Positions 3,065 to 17,590 of a stretch of DNA of 27,690 nt are shown piece by piece. Positions within the stretch are counted from its first letter, which is position 1. Each line of letters begins with the position of its first letter. The notes beneath the pieces were generated by a model. It searched no databases. It worked only from the letters and a program-made list of their open reading frames with translations, and had not been told where the DNA came from. The position numbers and the translations under genes are program-made. Source of the DNA: a virus. Location of the stretch: IMG/VR virus record IMGVR_UViG_3300006751_000096, positions 1 through 27,690 of that record; one strand, written 5' to 3'.

Positions 3065-3427
3065 ATGAATAAATTCCCAAACGAAGCAACAAGATTCAGT
3101 TCTGAAAATCAACCAGAGAAACGTGGAAGACCTAAAGGCAGAAGAAATGTGGCTACAGTATTAAAAGAACTATTGGCAACACAAGATGAAAACATGGGTG
3201 GTCTTGGTGATTTTGGAAGTCCACTTGCAAAGATGTTGATAAAAATTGCATTCAGTAATGATTCTAATAACAATGAAAAGCTAAAAGCTATAAAAGAAAT
3301 ACTTGACAGGATTGAAGGGTTGCCAGACCAAAACCTTAATGTTTCTGCAAGTCCACCTTCTTGGATCAATGACGGCGATGTTCTGGGTGGTGAAGTATAT
3401 GATGACTATGAAGATGAAACAAGCTAA
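3065..3427 (+). CDS. terminase small subunit-like protein (DUF5681-type)
   Basis: A 120-residue protein whose N-terminus has the GRPKGRRN signature (residues about 21-28) after a hydrophilic FSSENQPEKR segment. This is the pattern of the DUF5681 family, small phage proteins that usually precede the large terminase subunit. The remainder is helical (LKELLAT, KLKAIKEILDRI) with an acidic tail (DDYEDE). A DNA-recognition role in packaging is inferred from position directly before the large terminase and from the basic AT-hook-like GRPKG. Its last 20 bases overlap the start of the large subunit, a usual coupling. Preceded by a 44-base gap without a clear promoter. Confidence 0.75.
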   Translation: MNKFPNEATRFSSENQPEKRGRPKGRRNVATVLKELLATQDENMGGLGDFGSPLAKMLIKIAFSNDSNNNEKLKAIKEILDRIEGLPDQNLNVSASPPSWINDGDVLGGEVYDDYEDETS

Positions 3428-4580
3428 ACCATATTATGATGTAAAAAATTCAAGCAAAAGAATTTGTGTGTTGCAGGGTGGAACAAGAAGTGGAAAAACG
3501 TATTCAATAATTCTTGCATTGATTGAGTTTGCATATAAAAACAAAGGCAAAGGTTTGTATATAACAATTGCAAGAAAGACATTCCCAAGTTTGAGAGGAA
3601 CAAGTATGCGTGATTTCTTTGATGTTCTAAACAAAGAGAATTTGTATAGTGAAGCAAATCACAACAAATCAAGTGCATTATACGAACTCTACGGCAATAT
3701 CTTCGAATTTATAAGTGTTGACCAACCCGCGCGTGTTAGAGGGCGTAAACGTGATGTTCTGTTTTTGAATGAATGCAATGAGTTTTCATTTGACGAATAC
3801 ACACAATTGGCATTACGAACAACATACAAGATAATAATTGACTTCAACCCAAGTGAAGAATTTCATTGGCTATACACACAAATAATTGATGCAGACAGAG
3901 ATGATGTTGACTTTCATATTTCAACATATAAAGACAACCCATTTTTAGAAGAAAGCACAATATCAGAAATTGAAAGACTTAAAGAAGTAGATGAGAACTT
4001 ATGGCGGGTTTTTGGTGAAGGGCAAAGGGGTGTTGCTACTGAAACCATTTTCCCTTCATTTAATATAGTGGACAAAGTTCCAGAGAATGCAAAACCTATT
4101 GCATTAGGACTCGACTTTGGTTTTAGCGCTGATCCAACATCATTGGTTAAAATATACAAACATGACTTAGATTTGTATATTGATGAACTACTTTATGAAA
4201 AGGGTTTGACCAACCAAGACATTGCAACCAAAATCAAACACTTAGGTATTGACAGAAGTATTGAGATATTTGCCGATTCAAGCGAACCCAAGTCGATTGA
4301 AGAAATCTTTCGAATGGGTGGCATAAATATTAAGGGTGCAAAGAAAGGGCCGGACAGTGTGAGGATTGGAATTGATGTGATGCGAAGGCACAAGCTGAAC
4401 ATAACACAAAGAAGCGTCAATGCAATTAAAGAGTTTAGAAACTACAAGTGGATAAAAGACAAGAACAATGAAATCACTAACAAACCAATTGATGCTTATA
4501 ACCACAGCATTGATGCGGTTAGATATGTTTGCTTGAACAAGTTAATGGTGTCGTATTCTGGAAAGTATTATATTAGTTAG
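3408..4580 (+). CDS. terL: terminase large subunit (PBSX/Terminase_3 type)
   Basis: The packaging motor ATPase and nuclease, 390 residues from ATG 3408 (ATG 3414 is equally possible). Residues 24-31 are the Walker A loop GGTRSGKT. Residues 117-126 (VLFLNECNEF) give Walker B with the catalytic acidic residue. The C-terminal RNase H-like nuclease has its acidic residues in GLDFG (Asp236), FADSS (Asp290) and HSIDAVRY (Asp369). Length is normal for the family. It overlaps the small subunit gene; the longer reading frame from 3303 is just the overlapping out-of-frame extension. It is followed by a 30-base gap that carries the composite late-promoter motif before the tail genes. Confidence 0.96.
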   Translation: MKMKQAKPYYDVKNSSKRICVLQGGTRSGKTYSIILALIEFAYKNKGKGLYITIARKTFPSLRGTSMRDFFDVLNKENLYSEANHNKSSALYELYGNIFEFISVDQPARVRGRKRDVLFLNECNEFSFDEYTQLALRTTYKIIIDFNPSEEFHWLYTQIIDADRDDVDFHISTYKDNPFLEESTISEIERLKEVDENLWRVFGEGQRGVATETIFPSFNIVDKVPENAKPIALGLDFGFSADPTSLVKIYKHDLDLYIDELLYEKGLTNQDIATKIKHLGIDRSIEIFADSSEPKSIEEIFRMGGINIKGAKKGPDSVRIGIDVMRRHKLNITQRSVNAIKEFRNYKWIKDKNNEITNKPIDAYNHSIDAVRYVCLNKLMVSYSGKYYIS

Positions 4581-4611
4581 ACAAAAACAATAATTTTATA
4601 TTTATAAAAAA
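4578..4611 (+). promoter_or_regulatory. candidate phage late promoter, copy 1 (tail operon)
   Basis: TAGACAAAA at 4578-4586, ten bases, then TATATTTATAAAAAA at 4597-4611, ending on the A of the ATG at 4611. The same two blocks with the same 10-base gap occur at 13887 and 17381. If TATATTTA is a -7 box, transcription would begin on or next to the start codon, giving a nearly leaderless message. Function is inference from repetition and position. Confidence 0.6.
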
Positions 4612-5180
4612 TGAAGAACATTAAATTAACAGTTCCAGAAAGTTGGAATGATATAACAGTTAGACAGTATCAGAAGTTCACAAAGATTCTTAAACTTCAA
4701 CAAGAAGAACGACAAAGAACAATTGACATTGTTTCTGTGTTTTGCAATGTAGACAAAAAGCTGTTGAAGAAATTTAAAATGAAGGACTTGGACAAGATTT
4801 CAAACATTATTGTTTCAATGACCAAAGAAGACCCTTCAAATATTAAAATGGAAAAGAACATTGAGTTTAACAATGACAAATATGGTGTCATTCCAAATAT
4901 GTCTGAAATGACAACAGGCGAGTTTGTTGACCTTGAAAGCTACTGTGAAGAATCAACAGAAAACCTGCACAAGATTTTGTCTGTGTTGTATAGAAAGCAG
5001 ACAGATAATGTTGATTATTGGGGGCGGTATCAAGTAGAAGATTATGATCCATCACCAGAAAAACACACGTTGATGTTAGACCTTCCGATGAATTATGCTT
5101 TGGGGGTTCTCAATTTTTTTTTTCATTTAGGCGACAAACTTTTAGCAGATTCGGACAATTATTTGATGAAGTTGAAATAA
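4611..5180 (+). CDS. tail assembly chaperone-like protein, zero-frame product
   Basis: A 189-residue soluble protein opening with LTVPESWNDITVRQYQKF, a start style seen in small tail-assembly proteins of Bacteroidota phages. It is mostly helical and charged. Shortly before its stop lies a run of ten T (5114-5123), read as FFF. From there the -1 frame stays open for 91 codons to 5398 with no ATG of its own. This matches the G/GT arrangement of lambda-like tail chaperones, where a short form and a frameshifted long form are made. The chaperone role is inferred from this architecture and from its place at the head of the tail module. Unusually, the tape measure gene is about 6.2 kb downstream, not adjacent. 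Confidence 0.75.
   Translation: MKNIKLTVPESWNDITVRQYQKFTKILKLQQEERQRTIDIVSVFCNVDKKLLKKFKMKDLDKISNIIVSMTKEDPSNIKMEKNIEFNNDKYGVIPNMSEMTTGEFVDLESYCEESTENLHKILSVLYRKQTDNVDYWGRYQVEDYDPSPEKHTLMLDLPMNYALGVLNFFFHLGDKLLADSDNYLMKLK
5112..5123 (+). promoter_or_regulatory. slippery site for -1 ribosomal frameshifting
   Basis: AATTTTTTTTTT read in zero frame as AAT TTT TTT TTT, followed by CAT. Any heptamer within it is T TTT TTT, the X XXY YYZ form that lets both tRNAs re-pair one base back. After the shift the ribosome reads TCA TTT AGG and continues to the stop at 5396-5398. Polymerase slippage on the run would give the same result. Confidence 0.65.
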
Positions 5181-5398
5181 CACAGAATGAGGGAACAAGT
5201 TATGAAAGAAGGATAACAACAGAAAAAAGATACAAAAGCAAGTGGGGGTGGTATACCGTTCTCTACAATTTGTCTGGTGGGGATATACTGAAAATAGAAC
5301 CTGTAACCAAGACAAAAATATACGAAGCATTAACATTCTTGTCTTATCAACAAGATTTATTTATTTTAGAAAAAGAAAAAAATGGCACAAAATTCTAA
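5123..5398 (+). CDS. -1 frame extension of the tail chaperone (GT-like part)
   Basis: Ninety-one codons in the -1 frame, beginning SFRRQTFSRFGQLF and ending KEKNGTKF. Joined to codons 1-171 of the zero frame, it gives a 262-residue protein. The extension looks like a real protein: KWGWYTVLYNLSGGDILKIE followed by EALTFLSYQQDL, a pattern I associate with the C-terminal part of tail assembly proteins in Bacteroidota phages. It has no ATG, explains the otherwise empty stretch 5181-5381, and ends 17 bases inside the next gene. The alternative is a single 262-residue gene broken by a miscounted T in the homopolymer. Confidence 0.7.
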   Translation, partial: SFRRQTFSRFGQLFDEVEITQNEGTSYERRITTEKRYKSKWGWYTVLYNLSGGDILKIEPVTKTKIYEALTFLSYQQDLFILEKEKNGTKF

Positions 5399-5879
5399 CA
5401 ACACACCAAACAATATCACATACAGACAAATGGTTGGAACATTTAGTGATATAGCAACAAATCACTTGCAAATACAATCATTCAATTCTGGTAGTTTAGA
5501 TGACTTGGATATTGAAAAGTTAGATGCTGACAAATTCCCTTTGCTGTATATAACGCCACAACCTGCTATTGTTGATGCACACACATTAACATACTCATTT
5601 GATGTTGTTGTTGCAGACCAAATACAAGAAGACATGACTGACATTGATGACACTTATTCTGAAACACTTTTAATAATAAAAGATGTCATTGCTAATTTTA
5701 GACAAGCAGTGCAAACAAAGTCTTGGGCGGATCAAAGAACAGACATTGAAATGCCAATAAATTTAACACCGTTCACAAGTAGGTTTTCAAACTTACTGAC
5801 AGGGTGGGCGGGGACATTTAATATAGTAGTTAACAATGAGAACAACCTGTGCATTGTTCCACAAACAGATAATACATAA
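5382..5879 (+). CDS. tail terminator / neck-like protein
   Basis: A 165-residue protein starting at ATG 5382, overlapping the frameshifted chaperone extension by 17 bases and ending TAATG with the next gene. The middle has an alternating beta pattern typical of small head-tail joining and tail terminator proteins: FPLLYITPQPAIV, then LTYSFDVVVADQI, a helix (YSETLLIIKDVIANFRQAV), then LTGWAGTFNIVV. That beta-beta-helix-beta order, and the place just before a gp10-like gene, suggest the protein capping the tail tube or linking it to the head. The assignment rests on fold pattern and context, not on a signature motif. Confidence 0.6.
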   Translation: MAQNSNNTPNNITYRQMVGTFSDIATNHLQIQSFNSGSLDDLDIEKLDADKFPLLYITPQPAIVDAHTLTYSFDVVVADQIQEDMTDIDDTYSETLLIIKDVIANFRQAVQTKSWADQRTDIEMPINLTPFTSRFSNLLTGWAGTFNIVVNNENNLCIVPQTDNT

Positions 5880-6451
5880 TGGCAACATATCCAAATTTTA
5901 CACAAGCATTGCAGGACTTTGGAAAGGTGCAGGTTTCTGATGCTAAAGCAGGTGTTCCAGACACAGCATTGGCAACGTCAATAGAATATCAAGTGCAGGG
6001 TGCGGGAAGGTTTCAACCAACAGTTAGTTTCAAAATGAATGACTATGGTGGATTTGTTGACACAGGGGTTGTTGGAACAGGACAACCATTTGACAATGGA
6101 AGAAAACTTGATATGAAGACGCAACTGAACAGTAAAAAAGCAAATGAACTTTTTGGCTTTGATAAACAACCTGCATTTTCTGGAACATATAAAATGATAA
6201 ACCCAAGTGCAATTGATAAATGGGTTATTAAAAAAGGACTTGGTGGAACAAGAGATGCAAAAGGAAGATTTATAAAAAGAAGTGCTGTCAAATTTGCTGT
6301 TGCAACCGCTATATACAGACAGGGACTTCAGGGAACAGGTTTCTTTTCAACACCACTAGAATCAAATATAGAAGCATTTAACCCCATCTTTGAAGACGCA
6401 CTTGCTAAAGACTTAACTGAAAACTTAAACATTGATAAATACTTTGTATAA
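5879..6451 (+). CDS. HK97 gp10-like neck / head-tail joining protein
   Basis: A 190-residue protein with the features of HK97 gp10-like neck proteins. YGGFVDTGVVGTGQPF (about residues 58-73) is the strand-turn with a V-D-x-G motif. It is followed by PSAIDKWVIKKGLGG and then RDAKGRFIKRSAVKFAVATAIYRQG, a basic segment and a helix, and FFSTPLE near residue 160. Proteins of this kind complete the head-tail connection. The start is coupled to the previous gene (TAATG), and it abuts the next gene with no gap. Family assignment is from remembered motifs and is fairly secure; the exact position in the virion is not. Confidence 0.65.
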   Translation: MATYPNFTQALQDFGKVQVSDAKAGVPDTALATSIEYQVQGAGRFQPTVSFKMNDYGGFVDTGVVGTGQPFDNGRKLDMKTQLNSKKANELFGFDKQPAFSGTYKMINPSAIDKWVIKKGLGGTRDAKGRFIKRSAVKFAVATAIYRQGLQGTGFFSTPLESNIEAFNPIFEDALAKDLTENLNIDKYFV

Positions 6452-7978
6452 ATGGCAACACTACAGATAACACAAATACCAACAGAAACAGCAACCTTCG
6501 TAGGCACAGCAAACACATATGCTGAACTTGTGCCAACAAACTATTGGCCGATACTTCCAATAACAATAAGAGTAACAGATGACCTCGCGGCGCTTTTTAA
6601 AGTGAAGTATATATTGAGAGTGTATAAAGACAGTATTTCAGATGCCAACCTTTTAGCCACAGTAAAACAAAGAACAAACAATCTTTCTTCAACAACAAAT
6701 CAAGTTGCTATTTTTGATGTTAGAAATATCATAAACACACAACTTCAAGCAACCTACAGTGATGGTGCTAACGCAGACAAAGAAATTCACACATTGGGGG
6801 AAAATACAGTGACCAAGATATTTAGTGGAAACAATGACACAGTTCAAACCATTATATTCAAAGCAACATGGGAGAGGTCAACAACTGCAGGTGGCGCACC
6901 AGAAGAGCAGACAGGTGGCACAGATGAAGTGCAAATAACAATGTATTTCATAAATGCTACATTCAAATTGTTCAGTGTTATGGGTGAAGACACCAATCCC
7001 TTAACGGATTACAACACAGTTTCAAACATTGACTATCTACATTCTAACGCACCAGACATCACAGATACAAGAATGATGAATTTGGCACCGGGTGGTTCTT
7101 CTGGTCTTTTAAGTGGTTTAATGAACTACATAACCAACACACATTCGTTTCACACAATAGCATTTCAGAACAAAGGCGCGTGGGGTTCTAACGCTGATTA
7201 TTTAGGACTGCAATTTTATGAAGCAGATGGAAGTTTAATTTTTACATATACATTTTATAACAGCACAGCACAGGGTGGCTACTTACCGGCAAGTGCGGGT
7301 TCAGATTTATCATACTTTTTGTTTGCGGGTGTTGGTTCTGCAAATCTTGAGAATTACACAGGCGCATGTTTCAAAGATGATTCGGCACTAGCAAACTTTG
7401 ATGGTCAACCTTCTGGGGATGTTGTGAGAGATTATGCGTATTATAGAGTATATATGTGCGACAACCAAAACGGAACCGCTTCATTTAGGTCTAAGTATTA
7501 TTATTTTGTAAAAGAATTTGACAATGCTGTTAATTGCCAAAAGCAAAAAATTATTCGTCTTGGTTGGATCAATGAACTTGGTGCTTGGGACTACTACAAT
7601 TTCAATGGTGGTCAAACTGAAACAGTATCAACAGAACGGCAAACGTATTCAACAATGCTTGGTTCAAGTGCCTTAGACAGGGGGGCAACATACAGCTTTG
7701 ACACGTGGGGTGCAGGAACAAGAACATTAACAACAAGGTCTAAATTGAAAAGCCAATTACAAACACAGTATATTGATGAAGCAGAAGCACAGTTTCTTGA
7801 AACATTATTTAACTCAACAGTAGTGATGCAAATACAACAAGCAGGTGTTGACACCTTTTCACAGTCTGTTGTTATTACAGACAAGTCTTTTCAAAGAAGA
7901 ACAAAAGCAAAAGACAGACTGCAAATACAATATACATTCACAATAGAATATAGCAATCCTATTAACACAAACTCATAA
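6452..7978 (+). CDS. large tail structural protein (tail tip / distal tail region)
   Basis: A 508-residue, beta-rich, Thr- and Asn-rich protein without signal peptide or membrane segments. The N-terminal part alternates short strands (ITIRVTDDLAALFKVKYILRVY). The middle has aromatic-rich strands (FYEADGSLIFTYTFYN). The C-terminus has a domain with YSFDTWGAGTRTLTTRSK, then EAQFLETLFNSTVVM, SVVITDKSF and LQIQYTFTIEYS, a strand set typical of ring-forming tail proteins. It is coupled to the following 1154-residue gene by TAATG. In this context it is probably part of the tail tip complex. I do not recognise a named family. Confidence 0.65.
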   Translation: MATLQITQIPTETATFVGTANTYAELVPTNYWPILPITIRVTDDLAALFKVKYILRVYKDSISDANLLATVKQRTNNLSSTTNQVAIFDVRNIINTQLQATYSDGANADKEIHTLGENTVTKIFSGNNDTVQTIIFKATWERSTTAGGAPEEQTGGTDEVQITMYFINATFKLFSVMGEDTNPLTDYNTVSNIDYLHSNAPDITDTRMMNLAPGGSSGLLSGLMNYITNTHSFHTIAFQNKGAWGSNADYLGLQFYEADGSLIFTYTFYNSTAQGGYLPASAGSDLSYFLFAGVGSANLENYTGACFKDDSALANFDGQPSGDVVRDYAYYRVYMCDNQNGTASFRSKYYYFVKEFDNAVNCQKQKIIRLGWINELGAWDYYNFNGGQTETVSTERQTYSTMLGSSALDRGATYSFDTWGAGTRTLTTRSKLKSQLQTQYIDEAEAQFLETLFNSTVVMQIQQAGVDTFSQSVVITDKSFQRRTKAKDRLQIQYTFTIEYSNPINTNS

Positions 7979-10900
7979 TGGAACAAGTTAGATTAGTTGC
8001 ATATAGAAAAGCTACGAGTGGCGCTACAGTGGACACAAGCTATGAATTTGACTTGCAAGAAAGTCCAAACATATCTTTGAATTTTCAATTCTCAGATATT
8101 AAAGAACCGCAGACAAGAAAAGCAAATTATTCACAGACATTCAAATTGCCATTCACAGACAACAACAATGACTTCTTTCAAAATTGGTTTAATGTTAATA
8201 TGGCGACACTTGTGTTTTCTACAAGGCAAAAATTTACCGCTACTTTGTTTGTGGGTGCAACACCACAGTTTGAAGGGTTTATTCAATTAAAAGCGGTATA
8301 TCAAAAGGCACAAGTCTATGAAGTTGTTTTGATGTCAAACACAGCAGACTTGTTTTCTGCAGTTGGTGAAAATAGATTGCGCGATGTGTTCAGAAATGAA
8401 GATGGTTCATACAGCAATGAATTAAACCATATATATAAACGCGATAACATAATAGCATCGTGGAATGGTGGTTCTTCAAGTTTTACAAGTGATTGTGTTG
8501 GTTGCAGTGGCGCATCTTTAAGAGATGTAGATGCAGGTGTTCAAAAGGTGATGTATCCGATGTCCATAACAACACCCAAATTTTATTACTACAGTAATAT
8601 TCAATACTTTTTGAACATGCCCCAATCATATATAGATGCTCAGGGATATGAAAACTCGTCTGATAGGATGGTTGACATAACACAGTTCAGACCTGCATTG
8701 CAATTAAAAAATATACTTAATCTGATACTTGAAAAAGCAGGTTTCACATATACATCAACTTTTATTAATGGTTCTTATTTTGGCAAGTTGTTCATGACAA
8801 CTGCAAACAATATAGAGGGTGGAATGTTGCCAACAACAACCTCAACAACATTCCCAAATTTTTCAACAAAAGTTGGAAACAATGCAACTTGGGGTGTTTA
8901 TGAACCGAATGAAGGTGGAATGCCTAATATAGACACGCCTATTCCAGAAGCAGACTTGATGACTGTTGTCCCTGCGAACACAGAAAGCGGTTATTCTTGC
9001 GTTTCTGATACTTTTAATTGTTGGAATACAGTCGAAAATTCTTTTACAAAAGTTTCTGGTGGACAAATAGAAATGTCTGTTAGTCACAGGTGGAAGATAG
9101 ACAGGGTTTCAAGGGTTAATTCAGAAGAACCAATTTTATTAAAAGTATGGTTACAAGACACGTCAAACCCAGACTTAGTCTATGGCGACCCCTCTATTGT
9201 AACCACAAGTGTTGGTGATGGTGGTGGTTCTACTGATAGTTCTAGCCTACCCGAATGGCATTATTTTGACCTATCACAAATGGACATTGGTGCAACTGCA
9301 CACATATACATGAGTTTTACAAACATACAATTTGATCATGCAACACTATCTTCTATAAAATTTGCAAACTCAACAGCTACGGTCTGCGGTGGCGAAATTG
9401 GTTTATATTCTAAAATCACTGTTTGGGCAATTCCTTATTCAGAAGGGGTTTACAATGGAACAATTAATGTTCCTGCTTGTATTGATGAAAACATTTTGCA
9501 GAAAGATTTTTTGCTTGATATTGTTCAGAGATTTAACCTTGTTATCATATCTGATCCAGACAACCCTGAGAACCTGATTATAGAACCTTATGATAATTAT
9601 ATTGCAACTGGTGAAATAAAGAAATGGACAGACAAATTAGATGTGTCTAAAGAGGTTATTGTGAAAGACACTACATCAATACAAAAAAAGATTATTCATT
9701 TCACAGATCTTGAAGACACTGACCTGTGGAACAAAGCATTGAAAGAAGAAGCGCCAGAGGTCAATGTATATGGACATTATAAGCAAATAAACAGCACAAA
9801 TGAGTTTGCATCTGGTGAATTAAAAAACAATTCTATATTTTCACCATATATCAATGATAAGGTCTTTATCTATTCCGGTGACGAGCAAACAGAACTTCCA
9901 AACATGACAGTTCAATATGAAACAACATACAATGATGATGGCAATTTTATTGTTCCCGCAAAAACAAAGCCAAAGTTGTTTTATTATTGTGGAACAGCAA
10001 CAACAGTCAAAGATGGCAATGACGACACTGTTACTTATTACATGCACAACCAAATTGAAGCATTGAGTGAAATAACAGCATATAGTTTCACAACCTATCC
10101 TGTGTGTTCACCATTTGACATAACACCTTCAAGTGATGCTTATACATTAACGTCAGCAAATAAATCATTGTATTGGAATGCTAACCCGCCACCACGTGGT
10201 GAATTAGATGTTTTTAATTATACTGATGAAACAGCAACGTGGTTTGCAAACACTTTATATGGGTTATATTGGCAATCATACTTAAACACTATCTATGATC
10301 CAAATGCAAGAATGATGGAGTGTTATTTGTATCTGGATGATGTGGATATTCATAACTTCAAATTCAATGATGAGGTGTTTATTAAAAATGCTTATTGGCG
10401 GGTTTTAAGTATCACAAATTATCAAGTAGGCATAAAGACTTCAACAAAGGTTTCACTGCTTAAAGTGGTTGATGACAGTGGTCCGTGTGAAGATTGTGAT
10501 TATGTTGTTGGAACAGATTCAACAGGAAACAATCTTTGGAATGGGTTTTTTTATTATTGGTGTCCGGACACTGATCCAAATTGCACCCCTTCTGTTTCAG
10601 CATTGCCATTGCTCGGGATATTAGCACCAGAAAGTTGTTGCACATGTCAAGGTGGAGAATCATTGACCAACTTCCCTTTTGCAACAGGCATTTACCCTTG
10701 TTTTGCAAACTCAGGTAGTTTGCCAATTAATTTGAAAAGTCTTTTAGGTATGCGTTCAATACTATCAAAAGGACAAGCCAAGTCAATTATATTTGACAAA
10801 ATAAGTGGTTACCAAAGACAACTTGTGATTGGTTCTGATAATGGACAATACAGTAGTTCCATTCTACCAAACTATGCAGATGATATGGTTATTAAATACA

Positions 10901-11442
10901 AGACCACACAGAAAGGAACTCCAAGATTACATGGAGAGATGCACAGAATTGTTGCTACAGGTTATACAGAGGGCAACACAAGAGGTTATGCTTATCCTGC
11001 GGGAACAAAATATAACAGAAGACCATTTGTTCCATATAACTCAAATATGATTATTAGAATCACAGGAACGGCAACAGTAATTGGTGGAACAAGTTCAACA
11101 TACGCAGTTGGAACAACAGAAGGGTTTTCATGGTATACAGCTTTTAAAAATGTTAATGGAACAATAACACAATTAAGCACAGCAGGGGGACAACAGGAAT
11201 TTAGTATTCGAGAGGGTGCAAACCCCACAACCTGCACATTGAATATAGCAACCACAAATGGAGAATTGCAATTTGGGTTAGATGATAGTCAAACAGACAC
11301 CAAAAGAATCTGGTCTTTGTCTGTTGACTTAGCTGTTCAAAGGTTGCCAAATATTGCTTTGCCTTATGGTGAAAATTGGGCGATATTCCAAAACACAAGT
11401 AATATACAATTTATGAATTTTGATAAAATGCTATGGAATTAA
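7978..11442 (+). CDS. very large tail-tip / baseplate protein
   Basis: The longest gene in the window, 1154 residues. The N-terminus (residues about 20-110) carries a motif I associate with tail-tip proteins of Bacteroidota siphophages: a strand (YEFDLQESPNISLNFQF), then KEPQTRKANYSQTFKLPFT and NNNDFFQNWFNVN. The middle holds LKNILNLILEKAGFTYTS and LLDIVQRFNLVIISDPDN, as in hub or Dit-Tal-like proteins. A Cys-rich stretch around residues 835-900 (CEDCD, CPDTDPNC, ESCCTC) is unusual for a cytoplasmically assembled virion protein and may bind metal. The C-terminal 200 residues are beta-rich and could contact the host. Probable role: tail tip and receptor-binding platform. Confidence 0.65.
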   Translation: MEQVRLVAYRKATSGATVDTSYEFDLQESPNISLNFQFSDIKEPQTRKANYSQTFKLPFTDNNNDFFQNWFNVNMATLVFSTRQKFTATLFVGATPQFEGFIQLKAVYQKAQVYEVVLMSNTADLFSAVGENRLRDVFRNEDGSYSNELNHIYKRDNIIASWNGGSSSFTSDCVGCSGASLRDVDAGVQKVMYPMSITTPKFYYYSNIQYFLNMPQSYIDAQGYENSSDRMVDITQFRPALQLKNILNLILEKAGFTYTSTFINGSYFGKLFMTTANNIEGGMLPTTTSTTFPNFSTKVGNNATWGVYEPNEGGMPNIDTPIPEADLMTVVPANTESGYSCVSDTFNCWNTVENSFTKVSGGQIEMSVSHRWKIDRVSRVNSEEPILLKVWLQDTSNPDLVYGDPSIVTTSVGDGGGSTDSSSLPEWHYFDLSQMDIGATAHIYMSFTNIQFDHATLSSIKFANSTATVCGGEIGLYSKITVWAIPYSEGVYNGTINVPACIDENILQKDFLLDIVQRFNLVIISDPDNPENLIIEPYDNYIATGEIKKWTDKLDVSKEVIVKDTTSIQKKIIHFTDLEDTDLWNKALKEEAPEVNVYGHYKQINSTNEFASGELKNNSIFSPYINDKVFIYSGDEQTELPNMTVQYETTYNDDGNFIVPAKTKPKLFYYCGTATTVKDGNDDTVTYYMHNQIEALSEITAYSFTTYPVCSPFDITPSSDAYTLTSANKSLYWNANPPPRGELDVFNYTDETATWFANTLYGLYWQSYLNTIYDPNARMMECYLYLDDVDIHNFKFNDEVFIKNAYWRVLSITNYQVGIKTSTKVSLLKVVDDSGPCEDCDYVVGTDSTGNNLWNGFFYYWCPDTDPNCTPSVSALPLLGILAPESCCTCQGGESLTNFPFATGIYPCFANSGSLPINLKSLLGMRSILSKGQAKSIIFDKISGYQRQLVIGSDNGQYSSSILPNYADDMVIKYKTTQKGTPRLHGEMHRIVATGYTEGNTRGYAYPAGTKYNRRPFVPYNSNMIIRITGTATVIGGTSSTYAVGTTEGFSWYTAFKNVNGTITQLSTAGGQQEFSIREGANPTTCTLNIATTNGELQFGLDDSQTDTKRIWSLSVDLAVQRLPNIALPYGENWAIFQNTSNIQFMNFDKMLWN

Positions 11443-11615
11443 AACAACACATACAGCTAAGTTCAATAATGATGTTGACACAGCTAAGAATTATTAATAC
11501 AATTGAACTGCATGGAGAAAAAGAATACTGTTTTTTATACGGCATGAATGAAAGACATGACAGCTTCACAAGAATGTTTAAAGAAATAAAAAGAATAATA
11601 TGGCTAAGGAAGTAA
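11433..11615 (+). CDS. small hypothetical protein before the tape measure gene (60 aa)
   Basis: ATG at 11433 overlaps the end of the tail-tip gene by 10 bases, and its stop overlaps the tape measure start by 16. The sequence is MELKQHIQLSSIMML followed by an EKEYCFLYGMNERHD turn and a basic helix (MFKEIKRIIWLRK). Without it, 157 bases would be empty in an otherwise gapless module. The place just before the tape measure is where tail chaperones usually sit, but nothing in the sequence shows that function. Confidence 0.55.
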   Translation: MELKQHIQLSSIMMLTQLRIINTIELHGEKEYCFLYGMNERHDSFTRMFKEIKRIIWLRK

Positions 11616-13324
11616 ATGTAGAAGTAAATTTTGACACAAAAGATGCTCAGAAAAATGCAAAGGACTTAGGGAAGGACTTTCAAGACTTAGGCAACAGTGC
11701 AGATGATGCGGGAAACAAAGTGAAAGGTGCAGGTGGTGGCGCAGAAAAATCTGGAAAAGAAGCTAAAAAAGGATCAAAGGGTTGGAACATATTTGGTAAA
11801 GCAATGCGAATGACAGGCATTGGTGCTTTGGTTGGTGTGTTCTTTAAATTTAGTGAGGTTTTAATGGGAAACCAGAGAGTGATGGACGCGGTGAATACTG
11901 TTGCCAATACAATGTCTATTATATTTTCTGATTTGGTCAATTTAATTATTGATGGTGTTGGTGTTGTTATTGACTGGGTTTCTAATCTTGGTAGTTTGTC
12001 GGATATTTTCAATAACGTAAAAGACAAAGTGCTTGACTTTGGTGGAACGATAAAGACATACATCATTGATTCAGTGAAAAAAACCATTGAAGGCATTGGT
12101 CTTCTAGGTCAAGCAATTGGAAAAGTGTTCAAGGGTGAATTTAAAGAAGCTGCGAAAATAGCAAAAGAAGGTGTCAAAACATTATGGAATGCAAACCCTG
12201 TTGTTGACTTAACAAAGAAAACAGTTAAATATGCAAAAGAAGTGTTGCCAAAAGTGGTTGAAGGAATTAAAAAAGGTGCAAAAGCGACAGGCGAGTATTT
12301 GAAAAAAACATACGAACAGGGAAAGGCAATTGTTGACACAGAAAACAAGCTGACAAAATTAATTGGAACACTTGAAAAAGAACGTGTTGCTATACAAAAA
12401 AACATTGATGAAAAGATAAAACTAAGGGACAATGAAAATAAAACCTTTGAAGAAAGAAAACAGGCGGCACAAGAATTATTGAAACTTGAAGAAGATCTAC
12501 TTGCCAAAGATATAGAACTACAAAAAGCAAGGGTTGAAAATTTAGAAGCTGAACTGAGGGTGAACCAAGACAACCTGCAAATGAAACAAGACCTTGCTCT
12601 CGCACAAGCAAAGTTAACAGAATTAGAAAACCAAGATGTTAAGCAAATAACAGAACAGACACAAGCTATTCATGATTTGACAATGGCACAAACTCAGTCA
12701 ATAGCAGAAATTGAATTGCTTTCTAAGTTTGGTCGAGAAAGGGAACTTGCTGAACTTGATTTGTTTTACAAAGAACAATTAGAAAAAGCAAGAAAAGCGG
12801 GTGTGGATCAATCTAAGGTCACTGAACAATATGAAGAAAAGAAGAAGCAAATAAGAAAGAAATATAATGATATTACAATACAGGCGGCGGGGAATTTACT
12901 TGGTGCTTTGGCGGCGGGACAAAAAAAGGGTTCAGATAAATGGAAAAAAATAGCAACTGCACAAGCATTAATAAACACATACTTGGGTGTTACTAAAGCA
13001 TTAAGTGATAAAGAAATGCCATTTGTTGCTAGAATGATTAACGCGGCTACACAATTAGTTATGGGTTTAAACAATGTGAAGTCAATTAAAAACACAAAAA
13101 TGGAAGGTTCTGGTGGTGGGGGTTCTGGTTCTGGTTCAGCCGTTTCATCGCCTACAATCAATCCAAGTGAATTTATTGGTGATGTTGGCAATTTAGTTCC
13201 AAATCAACTTACAGAAGATGTTGCAGGAACAGAAGCACAACCTGTTCAAGCGTATGTGGTTGAAAGGGATATTTCAAGCAGTCAAGCATTACAAGAAGAA
13301 CTAAATTTACAATCAACATTGTGA
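11600..13324 (+). CDS. tail tape measure protein
   Basis: A 574-residue protein. Order of features: an N-terminal Lys/Asp/Gly-rich region (GNKVKGAGGGAEKSGKEAKK), a hydrophobic Gly-rich segment (MRMTGIGALVGVFFKFSEVL) starting near residue 70, amphipathic helices (GLLGQAIGKVFKGEFKEAAK), then a long coiled coil from about 255 to 420 (EKERVAIQKNIDEKIK, ARVENLEAELRVNQ). It ends with a Gly/Ser linker (EGSGGGGSGSGSA) and a tail. Tape measure proteins set tail length at about 0.15 nm per residue, which here would mean a tail near 85 nm. This supports a siphovirus of modest tail length. It is followed by the gene-free island, so it ends the tail operon. Confidence 0.85.
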   Translation: MAKEVNVEVNFDTKDAQKNAKDLGKDFQDLGNSADDAGNKVKGAGGGAEKSGKEAKKGSKGWNIFGKAMRMTGIGALVGVFFKFSEVLMGNQRVMDAVNTVANTMSIIFSDLVNLIIDGVGVVIDWVSNLGSLSDIFNNVKDKVLDFGGTIKTYIIDSVKKTIEGIGLLGQAIGKVFKGEFKEAAKIAKEGVKTLWNANPVVDLTKKTVKYAKEVLPKVVEGIKKGAKATGEYLKKTYEQGKAIVDTENKLTKLIGTLEKERVAIQKNIDEKIKLRDNENKTFEERKQAAQELLKLEEDLLAKDIELQKARVENLEAELRVNQDNLQMKQDLALAQAKLTELENQDVKQITEQTQAIHDLTMAQTQSIAEIELLSKFGRERELAELDLFYKEQLEKARKAGVDQSKVTEQYEEKKKQIRKKYNDITIQAAGNLLGALAAGQKKGSDKWKKIATAQALINTYLGVTKALSDKEMPFVARMINAATQLVMGLNNVKSIKNTKMEGSGGGGSGSGSAVSSPTINPSEFIGDVGNLVPNQLTEDVAGTEAQPVQAYVVERDISSSQALQEELNLQSTL

Positions 13325-13343
13325 TACGATTTATGCTTGAAAA

Positions 13344-13375
13344 TTTGGTAGTGTCAAAAATTTTTTGTATATTTA
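13344..13375 (+). promoter_or_regulatory. Bacteroidota-type promoter of island unit 1
   Basis: TTTG at 13344-13347, exactly 20 bases, then TATATTTA at 13368-13375. This agrees with the known Bacteroides-type consensus (-33 TTTG, -7 TAnnTTTG) except for the last base. It lies just after the tape measure stop and points into the palindrome at 13377. Confidence 0.6.
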
Positions 13376-13376
13376 C

Positions 13377-13410
13377 TATGTAAATGTGATTATAATATCA
13401 CAATTACATA
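13377..13410 (+). other. 34-base near-perfect palindrome at the predicted transcript start
   Basis: Outer arms TATGTAA (13377-13383) and TTACATA (13404-13410); inner arms TGTGAT (13385-13390) and ATCACA (13397-13402); one A-A mismatch (13384/13403) and a 6-base loop TATAAT. Thirteen base pairs in total. It begins two bases after the -7 box, so it could be an operator overlapping the start site or a 5' hairpin protecting the RNA. The TGTGAT/ATCACA halves resemble a dimeric regulator site, but the regulator is unknown. Confidence 0.7.
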
Positions 13411-13549
13411 AAACCCAAGTAAGGAACTGTGAGTTTTACCCTTTAAGAATTATGAAACACTAAGGAAAAAGGTTTAAGTAATAAACAACACCATTGTATC
13501 GCTTGGTGAAATAGACAAGAAAACTTTAGAAACTTGTCTATTTTTTTTT
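13381..13549 (+). ncRNA. candidate small RNA, island unit 1
   Basis: About 169 bases between a good promoter (13344-13375) and a strong terminator (13509-13549) with no convincing reading frame inside; the only ATGs give peptides of a few residues. Visible structure: the 5' palindrome; AAACC (13411-13415) able to pair with GGTTT (13471-13475); GTTTT (13433-13437) with GAAAC (13454-13458); CACC and GGTG near 13489-13507; then the terminator stem. TGTGA near 13429 could compete for the TCACA of the 5' palindrome. No known RNA family is recognised. The exact 5' end is inferred from the promoter. Confidence 0.45.
13509..13549 (+). terminator. rho-independent terminator of island unit 1
   Basis: AAATAGACAAG (13509-13519) pairs fully with CTTGTCTATTT (13533-13543), an 11-bp stem with a 13-base loop, running into nine T (13541-13549). 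Confidence 0.85.
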
Positions 13550-13593
13550 GCTCTAAATTCAATACGATTGTTAATAACTTTTGCCGATTTTAC

Positions 13594-13624
13594 TTGACTT
13601 GTGTCATATTTTTTCTTATATTAG
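13594..13624 (+). promoter_or_regulatory. Bacteroidota-type promoter of island unit 2
   Basis: TTG at 13594-13596, exactly 20 bases, then TATATTAG at 13617-13624. The -7 box differs from TAnnTTTG at one position. Transcription would begin near 13630 and run through the two 39-base repeats to the terminator at 13848. Confidence 0.5.
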
Positions 13625-13665
13625 TTATAGATGATTGGGAATAGGTTGAGTGAGTTACTTGAGAG

Positions 13666-13704
13666 GCGGACATTATGCAGGACAGAAGTTTAGAAAATAA
13701 CACC
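13666..13704 (+). repeat. 39-base direct repeat, copy 1
   Basis: Begins GCGGACATTATGCAGGACAG and ends AACACC. It matches copy 2 at 13757-13795 at 36 of 39 positions (ATT/ACT near the start and two bases near the end differ). Both copies hold an ATG at the same place, followed by codons MQDRSLE. Confidence 0.9.
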
Positions 13705-13815
13705 TTGATAAATAGTCAAAACAAGAGCAAGAAACCTAAAATCATCAAGTTCAGGTGCGGACACTATGCAGGACAGAAGTTTAGAATACAACACCAAGAA
13801 AAATCAAGATTATGA
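13675..13815 (+). CDS. possible small basic protein (46 aa), uncertain
   Basis: ATG at 13675 inside repeat copy 1 opens a 46-codon frame that passes through repeat copy 2 in a different frame, giving KPKIIKFRCGHYAGQKFRIQ in the middle. The promoter at 13594 would place it about 45 bases into the transcript. In the frame read here through copy 2, the two copies differ mainly by conservative changes (AGA/AGG, CAT/CAC are synonymous), hinting that RxGHYAGQKFR was once coding. Against it: the two copies are 91 bases apart and so lie in different frames. Treat as a weak call. Confidence 0.25.
   Translation: MQDRSLENNTLINSQNKSKKPKIIKFRCGHYAGQKFRIQHQEKSRL
13757..13795 (+). repeat. 39-base direct repeat, copy 2
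   Basis: Begins GCGGACACTATGCAGGACAG and ends AACACC; second copy of the repeat at 13666. Its ATG (13766) opens a 26-codon frame MQDRSLEYNTKK... ending at 13846, parallel to the frame begun in copy 1. Confidence 0.9.
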
Positions 13816-13847
13816 CACAGAACAGGTTTTGACAAATAGGAACTAAC

Positions 13848-13877
13848 AAAAGAGGTTTAAAACACCTCTTTTTTTTT
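13848..13877 (+). terminator. rho-independent terminator of island unit 2
   Basis: AAAGAGGT (13849-13856) pairs with ACCTCTTT (13864-13871) around a 7-base loop and runs into nine T (13869-13877). The T run and the following GCTCTAAA are identical to the end of the unit 1 terminator. Confidence 0.85.
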
Positions 13878-13886
13878 GCTCTAAAA

Positions 13887-13920
13887 TAAACAAAACACCC
13901 TTTCTTATATTTATAAAAAA
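13887..13920 (+). promoter_or_regulatory. candidate phage late promoter, copy 2 (head operon)
   Basis: TAAACAAAA at 13887-13895, ten bases, TATATTTATAAAAAA at 13906-13920, eight bases before the ATG at 13929. No TTG lies at -33. It directly follows the island terminator, so head genes are started afresh here. Confidence 0.65.
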
Positions 13921-13928
13921 CAAGTCAA

Positions 13929-14891
13929 ATGAAAAAAACAAAAATCGTTGAATTACTAATTGATGAAACAGAAGAAGTTCATGGCATTCAAGCCATTTCA
14001 CTTGTGTCAAACCCTGCATTAGAACGGGGGTGGGTGGCATTAAGCAAAGACAAATTTCTTTCACTTGCAAAAGTAGATGAAGAAAAAAGAACACTTGTGG
14101 GTGTTGCATTAATACCAGAAAAACAAATACCGAGATTCGATGAAACAGAAGGTGAATATTTAGTTTTCTTTTCAAAAGAAACAATAGAAAAAGCACAAGA
14201 ACTTTTCATGAACAGCTTAAAGAATAACAAAGCTACTGTTGAGCATGAAAAAGATGTTCAGGGTGTTTCTGTCATTGAAACATGGATCAAAGAAGATGAC
14301 AATGACAAATCTAACTTATACGGGTTCTCTGATTTGCCAATAGGTTCTTGGCTTGTGAAAATGAAAGTATACAATGATGATGTATGGAAACAAGTGAAGC
14401 AGGGTGATTTAAAAGGTTTTAGTATCGAGGGGTTCTTTGTTGATAAAGCAATCGAAATGCAGAAGGGTGATATTTTAGACTTAGCAGAAGAATGTGTTGA
14501 GTGTGAACAAAAAGAATTGATGGAAGAAATAAAAGACGTTCTTTTAAATGCTGAATTAAGACCAGACAAAACACTTGATGGAACACCAATATATATGGAC
14601 GTTGAAAAAGCTGAATTATATGGAAGTTTGTTTTTTGATTGTGTAGGAAGCCACTCGCATGAAATTGATGGAAAAACATATTACATGGGTTGTAAATCAC
14701 ATCAAGAAGTTTTAAAGAAAAGAAAAAAGAAGATTGCATATAAAACAAATCAATACAGAAATAAAAACGCGGAATCTATGGAAAAATACCCGTGGGATCA
14801 ATGTATTGAAGACCAGATGAAAGAATACGGGGACAGGGAAACGGCAGAAAAAGTGTGTGCGGCAATAAAAAATAGAACTGTTAAAAAATAG
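13929..14891 (+). CDS. XkdF-like prohead protease
   Basis: A 320-residue protein matching the XkdF-like serine protease family (Peptidase_S78_2), which matures phage capsids. N-terminal ELLIDETEEVHGIQAISLVSNPA is typical. The likely catalytic His is His106 in VEHEK, followed by SVIETWIKEDD; the likely catalytic Ser is Ser165 in LKGFSIEGFF. After residue 180 comes an acidic and Cys-containing linker (EECVECEQKE), a small domain with CVGSHSHEIDGKTYYMGC, and a C-terminal helix pair PWDQCIEDQMKEYGDRETAE ending in VCAAIKNR, a tail motif also seen in other phage head proteins. It precedes the scaffold-like and capsid genes, the usual order. It is the first gene after the late-promoter motif at 13887. 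Confidence 0.85.
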   Translation: MKKTKIVELLIDETEEVHGIQAISLVSNPALERGWVALSKDKFLSLAKVDEEKRTLVGVALIPEKQIPRFDETEGEYLVFFSKETIEKAQELFMNSLKNNKATVEHEKDVQGVSVIETWIKEDDNDKSNLYGFSDLPIGSWLVKMKVYNDDVWKQVKQGDLKGFSIEGFFVDKAIEMQKGDILDLAEECVECEQKELMEEIKDVLLNAELRPDKTLDGTPIYMDVEKAELYGSLFFDCVGSHSHEIDGKTYYMGCKSHQEVLKKRKKKIAYKTNQYRNKNAESMEKYPWDQCIEDQMKEYGDRETAEKVCAAIKNRTVKK

Positions 14892-14907
14892 TTTTACATT
14901 TTGAAAA

Positions 14908-14941
14908 GGAACAAATAACAAGTATTAATATATATAAAAAA
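14908..14941 (+). promoter_or_regulatory. degenerate copy of the late-promoter motif
   Basis: GGAACAAAT (14908-14916; 6 of 9 matches to TARACAAAA), ten bases, AATATATATAAAAAA (14927-14941; 13 of 15 matches), seven bases before the ATG at 14949. The spacing is the same as in the three clear copies. Weaker evidence because AT-rich leaders look alike. Confidence 0.35.
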
Positions 14942-14948
14942 CAAAGAA

Positions 14949-15659
14949 ATGGGTTCATTACAAAAAATCAAAGAACTATTAAGGTTCTCAAAAAAGAAGA
15001 CATACAAAATCAATATGTATGCAGAAGCAATTCTTGATGATGCAAGAGTAATTGCAACAGATTCAGAAGAATTTGAAATTGGTTCAGCCGTTTACGTAAT
15101 TAATGACGCAGGTGAAGTTGAAGATTTAGCGGAAGGAATATACACACTTGAAGATGGTTCTAAAATCAGAATTGATGCTGAAAGCAATGTGGCAGGGTTT
15201 GGTGAAGAAGAAGTTGTTGAAGAAGTAGAAGAAGATTTGGAAGAAGAAGTTGTTGTTGCAAAAGAAGAAGTAATTGAAGAAATTACTGCTGATCCTGTTG
15301 TTGAAGAAATTGCAGTCAAAATAAATGATGCTACTCCAGACGAGGTAACTGAAGAAATTGCAAAAGAAGTTGCAAAAGTGGTTGTCGATCATATTTCAGG
15401 AAAAGTAGAAGAAGAAGTTGAAGCGGTTGAATTGTCTTCTGATGTTATGGGCGAAATTTTAACACGACTTTCTGCAATAGAAGAAAAATACACAGAATTA
15501 GAAGAAATGCCTTCAAGCAATGGAGTGAATATTTCACCAACAAACCTTTCTAAAAATGGAAAAAGTTTATTTGCAAAGAAATCGCGTGAAGACGTCTTGG
15601 GCATGACAACATCAGACCGTGCGAGGTTTATGATACAAAATAAAATAACAAGAATTTAA
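14949..15659 (+). CDS. acidic scaffold-like head protein
   Basis: A 236-residue protein directly upstream of the major capsid gene. The N-terminus is basic (FSKKKTYKINMYAEAIL). Residues about 45-75 (GSAVYVINDAGEVEDLAEGI, then YTLEDGSKIRI) resemble the small beta segment found in capsid-adjacent proteins of Bacteroidota phages. Residues 78-155 are extremely acidic, with many Glu and Val repeats (EEEVVEEVEEDLEEEVVV), probably helical. The C-terminus is a short coiled coil (AIEEKYTELEE) and a basic end. Acidic, helical, capsid-adjacent proteins are typically scaffolds removed by the prohead protease, which is encoded just upstream. The role is inference from composition and position. Confidence 0.7.
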   Translation: MGSLQKIKELLRFSKKKTYKINMYAEAILDDARVIATDSEEFEIGSAVYVINDAGEVEDLAEGIYTLEDGSKIRIDAESNVAGFGEEEVVEEVEEDLEEEVVVAKEEVIEEITADPVVEEIAVKINDATPDEVTEEIAKEVAKVVVDHISGKVEEEVEAVELSSDVMGEILTRLSAIEEKYTELEEMPSSNGVNISPTNLSKNGKSLFAKKSREDVLGMTTSDRARFMIQNKITRI

Positions 15660-15670
15660 ATTATATTAAA

Positions 15671-16666
15671 ATGAAACAAAGAAATTTTCAAGACGATTAT
15701 AACGAGATAAATCCTAAATTAAGAAAGTATTTTTTCTCTACAACTAACCCTGCAATAACATCAACTTATGCAGGAGAGTTAGCACTTCCATATCTAAGTG
15801 CGGCACTGAAAAGTGGAAAAACACTTGCTAATAATTGGATAACAATTAAGGAGAATATTCCATACAAGGCGGTTCTGAAAAATGTTGCAAATGCAAGTCT
15901 TATTCAGGATGGATCTTGTGATTGGAATGAAGCGGGAACCACTACTCTAAGTGAAAGAATTTTAACTCCGGAGGAATTTATGATTAATACTGAATTGTGT
16001 AAAGGTAAATTCAGAAGTGATTGGGAAGCTTTAGCAACGGGATCTCTTTATGATGATCACATACCCCCTACATTTGAAGAATTTTTATTAGGTATGATAG
16101 CTGATGAGGTTGCTCAAAAAATTGAAACTACTATTTGGAATGGAACAAATGGAACAACGGGAGAGTTTGAAGGACTTGCAACAGCAAATGGTGTAATTGT
16201 TCAAGAAGGGAATGTAATTAATACTTCAGTTGACTGGTCAACAGGAACAAATGTGATGACAAATCTTGGAGCTTTAATAACTGGAGCTACGGGAGTGTTA
16301 GCGGTGTCTCCTGCAATTATTGATAAAGAAGATTTTGCAATATATGTTTCTCCGAAAGTTGCTTTTCTTTATCAACAAAGATTGGCAGAACTTGGATATT
16401 TGAACGAATACTATGTAAGTGAAAAACCACTTAATTATATGGGTTATCAAATGTTAGTATGTCCCGGCATGCCTAATGATAGAGCGATTGGAGCACAAAA
16501 ATCTAATTTATATTTTGGATGTAATACAATGACTGATATGACTTCTGTTCGTGTTATCGATAGAACTTTAATCGATGGGAGCGATAACGTAAGAATAACG
16601 ATGCGATACAATGCGGGTGTTCAAGCGGGTGTTATTGGTGAAACATTTTGTGTAAAAGAATCGTAG
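15671..16666 (+). CDS. major capsid protein (HK97 fold)
   Basis: A 331-residue protein placed between scaffold-like and tube-like genes and closed by its own terminator. The C-terminal part shows the HK97 P-domain pattern: FAIYVSPKVAFLYQQRLAEL, LNYMGYQMLVCPGMPND, then DRTLIDGSDNVRITMRYNAG and VIGETFCV. The N-terminal 60 residues are helical and could be a processed or scaffold-contacting arm. No long acidic delta domain is fused, consistent with a separate scaffold gene. Codon choice differs by eye from its neighbours (more ACT, GGA and GCT; less ACA), as expected for a very highly expressed or recently exchanged gene. No strong promoter is seen in the 11-base gap before it. Confidence 0.85.
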   Translation: MKQRNFQDDYNEINPKLRKYFFSTTNPAITSTYAGELALPYLSAALKSGKTLANNWITIKENIPYKAVLKNVANASLIQDGSCDWNEAGTTTLSERILTPEEFMINTELCKGKFRSDWEALATGSLYDDHIPPTFEEFLLGMIADEVAQKIETTIWNGTNGTTGEFEGLATANGVIVQEGNVINTSVDWSTGTNVMTNLGALITGATGVLAVSPAIIDKEDFAIYVSPKVAFLYQQRLAELGYLNEYYVSEKPLNYMGYQMLVCPGMPNDRAIGAQKSNLYFGCNTMTDMTSVRVIDRTLIDGSDNVRITMRYNAGVQAGVIGETFCVKES

Positions 16667-16679
16667 AAACTGAATTGAT

Positions 16680-16708
16680 AAGAGTGGTTGAAATACACCA
16701 CTCTTTTT
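16680..16708 (+). terminator. rho-independent terminator after the capsid gene
   Basis: AAGAGTGGT (16680-16688) pairs with ACCACTCTT (16697-16705) around an 8-base loop and is followed by a T run (16704-16708). It probably limits read-through from the abundant capsid message. Confidence 0.88.
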
Positions 16709-16732
16709 ATAACCTTTTAAAAGAAAATAAAA

Positions 16733-17323
16733 ATGAATAAATTTTATCAATTCGCCTGCGACGTCAGCGAAGGCCGTTTGGTCGCGTGTAAAGATGTCAT
16801 CGGTGGAATACAAAAGATTTTCTTGACTAATTACGATGAAGCGCTACTTTCAAAGCTAGTCATCACATCAAATGAAATAACTGACTTTGATTCCGCAATT
16901 ACTGTTTTTCAGTATGATCTGAGAGCAAACACAGGGACATATAATGCGAATTTCACAAGCAATGATGCAAATGGAACAACGTATTATGAACAAGTTTTGG
17001 AAGTGATGTTGCAAAAGATAATTCATGAAGACATTCCAAATTTAGACAACATACTAAAAGGAAGATGTCATGTTTGGGTTCTAGATGCAAATGACAATGT
17101 GTTTTTATTAGGAACAAGATTTGGTTGCACCGTGACTGCGGGAGCAATGTCTACAGGAACAGCAAAAGCGGACATGAGCGGTTTTACTTTGACGTTTACA
17201 GCACAAGAAACTGAAAACTACATGTTGAAAGAATCTGCGGGTGTTGGAACAGCGAAATATCCATTTGATGGAATCGCTACTGACGCCAACGTGACTATCA
17301 CAGTTGGAACTACACCGGCATAA
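16733..17323 (+). CDS. tail tube-like / structural protein after the capsid gene
   Basis: A 196-residue protein lying between two terminators. Its last 90 residues show a beta pattern seen in tail-tube-like proteins of Bacteroidota phages: CHVWVLDANDNVFLLGTRFG, GTAKADMSGFTLTFTAQETE, and a GTAKYPFDGIATDANVTITV end. The middle helix EQVLEVMLQKIIHEDIPNLD fits a tube protein as well. Being flanked by terminators on both sides suggests high, separate expression, as for a major virion component. It lies between capsid and portal genes, not with the other tail genes, so a head role cannot be excluded. Its first 60 bases are strikingly GC-rich compared with the rest of the window. Confidence 0.6.
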   Translation: MNKFYQFACDVSEGRLVACKDVIGGIQKIFLTNYDEALLSKLVITSNEITDFDSAITVFQYDLRANTGTYNANFTSNDANGTTYYEQVLEVMLQKIIHEDIPNLDNILKGRCHVWVLDANDNVFLLGTRFGCTVTAGAMSTGTAKADMSGFTLTFTAQETENYMLKESAGVGTAKYPFDGIATDANVTITVGTTPA

Positions 17324-17344
17324 ACAAATATTCTATTCTGTTTG

Positions 17345-17378
17345 AAAAAGGGTAATCTGCGGGTTGCCCTTTTTTTTT
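17345..17378 (+). terminator. rho-independent terminator after the tube-like gene
   Basis: AAAAAGGGTAA (17345-17355) pairs with TTGCCCTTTTT (17364-17374), including one T-G wobble, with an 8-base loop. The T run ends at 17378. Confidence 0.88.
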
Positions 17379-17380
17379 AG

Positions 17381-17414
17381 TAAACAAAAAGCGTATATTT
17401 ATATTTATAAAAAA
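17381..17414 (+). promoter_or_regulatory. candidate phage late promoter, copy 3 (portal operon)
   Basis: TAAACAAAA at 17381-17389, ten bases, TATATTTATAAAAAA at 17400-17414, eight bases before the ATG at 17423. It directly follows a terminator, as copy 2 does, which supports a role in restarting transcription. Confidence 0.65.
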
Positions 17415-17422
17415 GAACAATC

Positions 17423-17590
17423 ATGATTATAGTAAAAAAAGAGTTTTTGAATGAAAAGGTTTCACACTACAGAATACCATTGGGTGAAATGAATCAAGGT
17501 CAATTAAGACACATTCAAGAAAGGTTTGGGGACAAGTATTTTGAAACACCTAAAAAGAAAAAAAAGAATGATTCAGTGGACACGGAATAA
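17423..17590 (+). CDS. small conserved-type protein before the portal operon (55 aa)
   Basis: ATG at 17423, nine bases after the late-promoter motif. The sequence has a basic start (IIVKKEFLNEK), a short helix (GEMNQGQLRHIQERFGDKYF) and a Lys-rich, acidic tail. It overlaps the next gene by 23 bases. No family is recognised. The placement right behind the promoter motif, with an ATG at the expected distance, makes it a convincing gene. Confidence 0.65.
   Translation: MIIVKKEFLNEKVSHYRIPLGEMNQGQLRHIQERFGDKYFETPKKKKKNDSVDTE

Follow-up and report, generated by a model that had tools for sequence, protein, structure and literature searches.

The tail chaperones that phages make by frameshifting serve as a textbook example of recoding by the ribosome. 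In the gpG/gpGT pairs of lambda type found in long-tailed phages, one gene yields a short protein and an extended form through a -1 ribosomal frameshift at one of various heptamers, and the gene lies between the tail tube and tape measure genes. Two products can also arise through slippage of RNA polymerase, which is efficient in vivo at nine A or T residues, with an RNA:DNA hybrid of 9-10 bp (PMC5009743). Bacterial transcriptional frameshifting uses T runs above 8 (PMC3711429), and the length at which A/T runs are avoided in coding regions is most often nine, as found by Baranov (2005; PMC1088944), in a paper that does not mention phages. The programmed slippage genes dnaX of Thermus thermophilus (nine As), mxiE of Shigella and those of IS elements (9A or 9T) have in common an A/T homopolymer of at least nine at the junction (PMC5009743, PMC1088944, PMC3711429); all of these are bacterial genes or IS transposases, and the papers searched yielded no phage example. 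Transcriptional slippage in phage tail genes was not reported in the open papers that we searched. Frameshifted tail chaperones and transcriptional slippage are already known, each separately, and their combination would be new if confirmed.

The gene described here lies in a viral DNA stretch of 27,690 nucleotides (IMG/VR record IMGVR_UViG_3300006751_000096, positions 1 to 27,690), termed the window, and the features of its locus are all encoded on the + strand. The frame-0 ORF (4611..5180) encodes a short product of 189 aa and contains a putative slippage run of exactly ten Ts (5114..5123), read in frame 0 as AAT TTT TTT TTT CAT. The heptamer T_TTT_TTT is in phase twice inside this run, the first and the last heptamers both being in phase. 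The -1-frame extension (5123..5398, SFRRQ...NGTKF) consists of 91 codons and a stop, reads FFF-SFRRQ at the junction, continues through KWGWYTVLYNLSGGDILK, stays open to the stop at 5398 and has no ATG downstream of the run. A slip at T10 would join 171 frame-0 residues, ending in FFF, to 91 residues of the -1 frame, giving a 262-residue product. The interval 5181-5381 is otherwise empty, and the next gene (5382..5879, 165 aa) shares 17 nt with the end of the -1 ORF, with similarly tight spacing in most of the relatives inspected. Directly upstream is the terminase large subunit ORF (3303..4580, given as ORF bounds and not as a start-codon call; PF04466, PF17288, phrog_2), and the tape measure ORF (11600..13324, 574 aa; phrog_1538, E 1.4e-6) starts about 6.2 kb from the T run gene. 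An earlier note, made from the letters of the window, had given the end of the frame-0 gene, the T count, the open -1 frame without ATG filling an otherwise empty stretch, and the distant tape measure gene, and all of these were borne out.

Several further features of the window were recorded. The gene order across 3303-19930 is unusual, running from terminase through tail genes with the tape measure gene to head protease, major capsid protein and portal. The portal ORF (18014-19930) contains an A12 run (19259-19270; AAA AAA AAA AAA following CAT), at which slippage would terminate both other frames within about 10 codons. Three intergenic T9 runs (13541-13549, 13869-13877 and 17370-17378), located between the tape measure gene and 17526, may be parts of terminators. 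A 504-aa ORF (1369-2883) reads as a fusion of a ParB-like nuclease and a DNA methyltransferase, and repeats the peptide KKEYNEL in tandem near 2500.

Within a single window the T10 is unremarkable, and relatives were therefore needed for the argument. The window is AT-rich, and its shuffles contain T10 matches at a mean of 4.9, so that the run is not beyond chance; the probability that three Phe codons are all TTT is about 0.45, hence the window alone gives no signal. As far as sequence comparison can tell, the non-randomness of the T10 arises only via conservation, the run and the -1 relation recurring in 385 non-identical relatives. Relatives were collected by eight IMG/VR scans with the frame-0 and -1 proteins and their profiles, one scan of bacterial genomes and tblastn against isolate phages; in addition, profiles were run against about 1190 genomes related to Galbibacter. 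Both parts are recognizable in 501 loci, of which 500 have them as adjacent ORFs in -1 relation and one (L515) has them fused; a locus on the opposite strand (L511) adds one more -1 case beyond the 501. The -1 extension is homologous across all relatives, and both parts align along their full length down to 22-25% identity. The two frames thus keep the arrangement seen in the window, which was the outcome that the earlier note had proposed to look for in related phages, and its suggestion of 189- and 262-residue forms made by a programmed -1 change gains support from it.

The pattern of substitutions agrees with the frame relation. Beyond the frame-0 stop, the window and its relative L001 differ by 5, 1 and 13 changes at -1-frame codon positions 1, 2 and 3, respectively (71 codons), and the corresponding counts are 9/3/18 against L002 and 11/4/26 against L005, with third positions of the -1 frame dominating throughout. 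Together with the recurrence in relatives, this makes the T10/-1 arrangement non-random. Conservation of the -1 frame starts at the run itself, in the motif FF.FR. A constant frame relation with coding signal in both frames, as expected of a gene with a programmed -1 frame transition, was found here, and the predicted -1 fusion is very well supported by this conservation.

Single uninterrupted genes, which the earlier note had named as evidence against its reading, occur only among remote relatives, and T runs of at least 8 are missing from all of them. L515, a remote prophage, is the sole single-frame locus in which both parts were detected, and reads AAT TTT TTT GAG CTG TTG (T7); its split relative L516 reads AAT TTT TTT TTG AGC TGT TGG (T9), with flanks alike and two Ts more. 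Neither a gene break nor the T run is present in two other remote loci, L521 and L520, or in the Unahavirus gene carried by Flavobacterium phages 23T and FPSV-F7; their -1 part was not detected by profile. On sequence grounds these genes fit an alternative in-frame state that is compatible with frameshifting elsewhere. Even Bacteroidia prophages at very great distance, with 0-frame matches down to E 6e-7, keep the T9. Flavobacterium phage 6H gp10 (L425 10352-10927) was considered as a second frameshifted case and rejected, since in its relatives 23T and FPSV-F7 the gene runs through without a break for 293 aa; two additional bases in 6H, either an error or a real change, shorten it to 191 aa. 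Several BFVD entries (A0A516L611, A0A516L5A8, A0A6J7WDG4, A0A6J5MY57 and others) present one chain that matches both the frame-0 and the -1 models, and may be real fusions or homopolymer errors.

Two plasmid-labelled records with T7 and T8 at the site, NZ_CP040811.1 (E. fergusonii pEF06) and CP045836.1 (Lysinibacillus pakistanensis plasmid), were left out of the counts because they are indel-ridden. These circular sequences of about 66-67 kb (L423 and L424) carry a terminase adjoining a gene of the T-run family and, filed under unrelated hosts, align over 6.5 kb at 99.7% identity with 3 mismatches and 16 gaps; they are probably one contaminating phage sequenced with many indel errors.

The length of the run at the junction was determined in the 385 non-identical split genes. 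It is 9 Ts in 301 of them, 10 in 76, 11 in five, 12 in one and 8 in two, and no run of 7 Ts or fewer was found. Thus, 383 of the 385 genes have a run of at least 9, the exceptions being the T8 loci L426 and L514, which still hold an in-phase T_TTT_TTT. As a background, T runs of at least 9 elsewhere in the same loci and on the same strand number 32 in 796 kb. The plain T run, which had been regarded as an oddity of this phage, did not prove to be one: a long T run is the rule in the family. The junctions vary in residue and phase, including GTT TTT TTT TAC, CTT TTT TTT TGG, GGT TTT TTT TTG, GCT TTT TTT TTG, AAT TTT TTT TTT and others. At the L257 junction (TTT TTT TTT CTG) the run already has 9 Ts, so that the next codon can do without an initial T. 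No nucleotide motif next to the run was found beyond what both coding frames account for.

To describe this variation, we defined u and d as the numbers of extra Ts upstream and downstream, respectively, of an in-phase T_TTT_TTT. The sum u+d is at least 2 in all split genes except two. Among the tree representatives, d is at least 2 in 49 of 49 with u=0 versus 17 of 165 with u of at least 1. On a family tree built with the slippage site excluded, the run moved to another codon phase at least 20 times, and the u=0 state changed 10 times; in seven supported independent pairs, d changes along with u in 6.0 on average and is opposed in none (sign test, median p 0.031). Because Ts missing on one side are offset on the other, the sequences indicate that evolution keeps run length and not a fixed codon motif.

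Three rivals of the programmed fusion were weighed. If the arrangement were a sequencing or assembly error and the true gene had one frame, homopolymer miscalls of the kind seen in the two plasmid-labelled records, where gaps outnumber mismatches 16 to 3, would be its source, and L515, fused with T7, would fit with this; however, the -1 relation with 8-12 Ts is found alike in hundreds of contigs from many independent metagenomes, in the isolate phage P12024S and in bacterial genomes, so this reading has a practically negligible chance and is refuted at the family level by the sequences compared. Long T runs are hypermutable in principle, and replication slippage could alter their length so as to toggle the long form between virions, as the naturally fused L515, two Ts shorter than L516, might suggest. 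Such switching would yield many fused or +1 copies, whereas, with run lengths that vary, only a single locus departs from the -1 relation, which points to length changes that are compensated or selected against; phase variation is accordingly held to be very unlikely. Equally improbable is translation of the -1 ORF as a separate protein, by re-initiation or coupling and without fusion. The annotation of P12024S does present the -1 part as its own 55-aa ORF (P12024S_39), but the -1 ORF of the window lacks an ATG after the run, -1-frame conservation begins at the run (FF.FR), and L515 has both domains in one uninterrupted ORF.

The weightier question is which machine slips. In programmed -1 ribosomal frameshifting, tRNA-Phe pairs would slip back on U_UUU_UUU, and the length of the run would follow from two-frame coding constraints and from the advantage of having slip sites that overlap. 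Every relative, the T8 loci L426 and L514 included, has T_TTT_TTT in phase, both end heptamers of the window run are in phase, and known G/GT pairs rely on a -1 shift by the ribosome (PMC5009743). If the heptamer alone were sufficient, however, T7 runs should be common, and heptamer-only runs of exactly 7 occur in none of the 385 split genes and runs of 8 in only two; moreover, no other heptamer substitutes for it despite divergence of the family to about 25% identity, and upstream and downstream Ts compensate for each other. Stimulatory RNA structure, a frequent though not universal companion of ribosomal shifting, was sought upstream and downstream of the run by a folding model that leaves pseudoknots aside: across 175 relatives the mean folding z stays near 0 whatever the offset, and neither a hairpin nor another structure was found in the window. 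We consequently regard the ribosomal explanation as possible and deserving of serious consideration, although on balance we doubt it. An uninterrupted T run of about nine or more is conserved at the junction, as expected of transcriptional slippage, and since the length rule of the family matches the length at which RNA polymerase slips, transcriptional slippage is preferred; the length rule is a property of the genes compared, and the RNA polymerase step is what we infer from it. Against it, every T run of at least 9 holds an in-phase T_TTT_TTT in any codon phase, and a ribosome could thus use every site; the T8 sites L426 and L514 are shorter than transcriptional slippage usually requires; constraints on the residues of both frames, with bulky hydrophobics on both sides, could partly mimic the length rule; and the tree test only just reaches significance. 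The earlier note had set the gene beside tail chaperone pairs made by slippage on X XXY YYZ sites; the conservation of length and not of such a motif now favors RNA polymerase over the ribosome. On the sequences compared, we think it rather likely that this is a programmed two-product gene with RNA polymerase as the most likely slipping machine.

Under transcriptional slippage, ordinary expression of 4611-5180 would produce the 189-residue protein, and at the T10 a fraction of expression events would shift by -1 to give the 262-residue protein, with its 91-residue extension to the stop in 5398. Within RNA polymerase the RNA:DNA hybrid, 9-10 bp long, would realign on a T run of at least 9 (U in the RNA), and some mRNAs would gain one U or lose two, so that standard translation would then make the fusion, of 262 residues for +1 U and 261 for -2. 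The +1-U product is the same 262-residue protein as that of a ribosomal -1 shift, while the 261-residue form made with two fewer Us differs. The short and long products would most likely act as tail-assembly factors in the manner of lambda gpG and gpGT.

The gene was predicted in the earlier note to be a tail chaperone, and the evidence on this point is divided. A short protein with a C-terminally extended -1 form (189 and 262 residues) is the arrangement that characterizes G/GT-type genes, so that the window gene shares the two-part architecture of the lambda gpG/gpGT pairs. It differs from them in having a T run of at least 9 in place of varied heptamers, in the absence of a detected stimulatory hairpin, in the lack of detectable sequence homology, and in its location directly after the terminase gene and not between the tail tube or major tail protein gene and the tape measure gene; this location is the same in the window, P12024S and a Galbibacter prophage, the last of which also has the same downstream gene order as the window. 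The frame-0 part, assigned to phrog_32199 (an entry without function), has a confident, mainly helical AlphaFold2 model (pLDDT 91), and the -1 part (KWGWY...LA.GD...) a weaker helical one (pLDDT 65). Neither part matched a Pfam or NCBIfam family; the PDB gave no sequence match and no informative fold match, the -1 model being weak. Of 78 members, 22 match phrog_166, 'tail protein', and among many uncharacterized viral fold matches of the frame-0 model in BFVD, one (E 2.9e-3) bears the name of tail assembly chaperone. Since the gene follows TerL and lacks family matches, it should not be filed as a lambda-type chaperone. The label of tail chaperone is plausible from the two-part architecture, the tail-gene neighborhood and the weak matches to tail protein and chaperone folds, though unproven; the most likely function, which we consider probable, is that of a two-form G/GT-like tail factor.

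With the bacterial slippage genes dnaX and mxiE and those of IS elements the window family shares a conserved run length and two products, and it differs from them in belonging to phages, with slippage inferred from sequence. The Nonlabens phages P12024S and P12024L (P12024S_38/_39) have a homologous frame-0 protein (25% identity), the -1 extension and a T9, also after TerL, although the genes are filed as two hypothetical proteins and the -1 part is not recognized as an extension. In JQ823122.1 (locus L024 6010-6704) it is entered as a free-standing 55-aa ORF that starts at an internal ATG. The Unahavirus (Duneviridae) gene, for example in Flavobacterium phage 23T (293 aa, phrog_25418), resembles the frame-0 profile distantly (hhalign E 5e-5), with a fold match of 6H gp10 (E 4e-5), and lies upstream of the tape measure gene. 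It differs from the window gene in being one uninterrupted gene in 23T and FPSV-F7, with a -1 domain undetected by profile.

Taken at the level of the family, the sequences give about an even chance that a large group of phages and prophages of Bacteroidota-type hosts makes a two-form tail-assembly product by RNA polymerase slippage at a conserved run of at least nine Ts, unlike the lambda-like ribosomal shift, and that this is the first such gene of tail-chaperone type. Automated annotation omits the -1 extension in hundreds of such phages, and homopolymer errors in long reads will generate false fused genes at the T run. The isolate phage P12024S allows the proposal to be tested directly. 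If it is true, phages would achieve the same two-product outcome by slipping at transcription, and the ratio of the two products would be governed by the RNA polymerase of the host.
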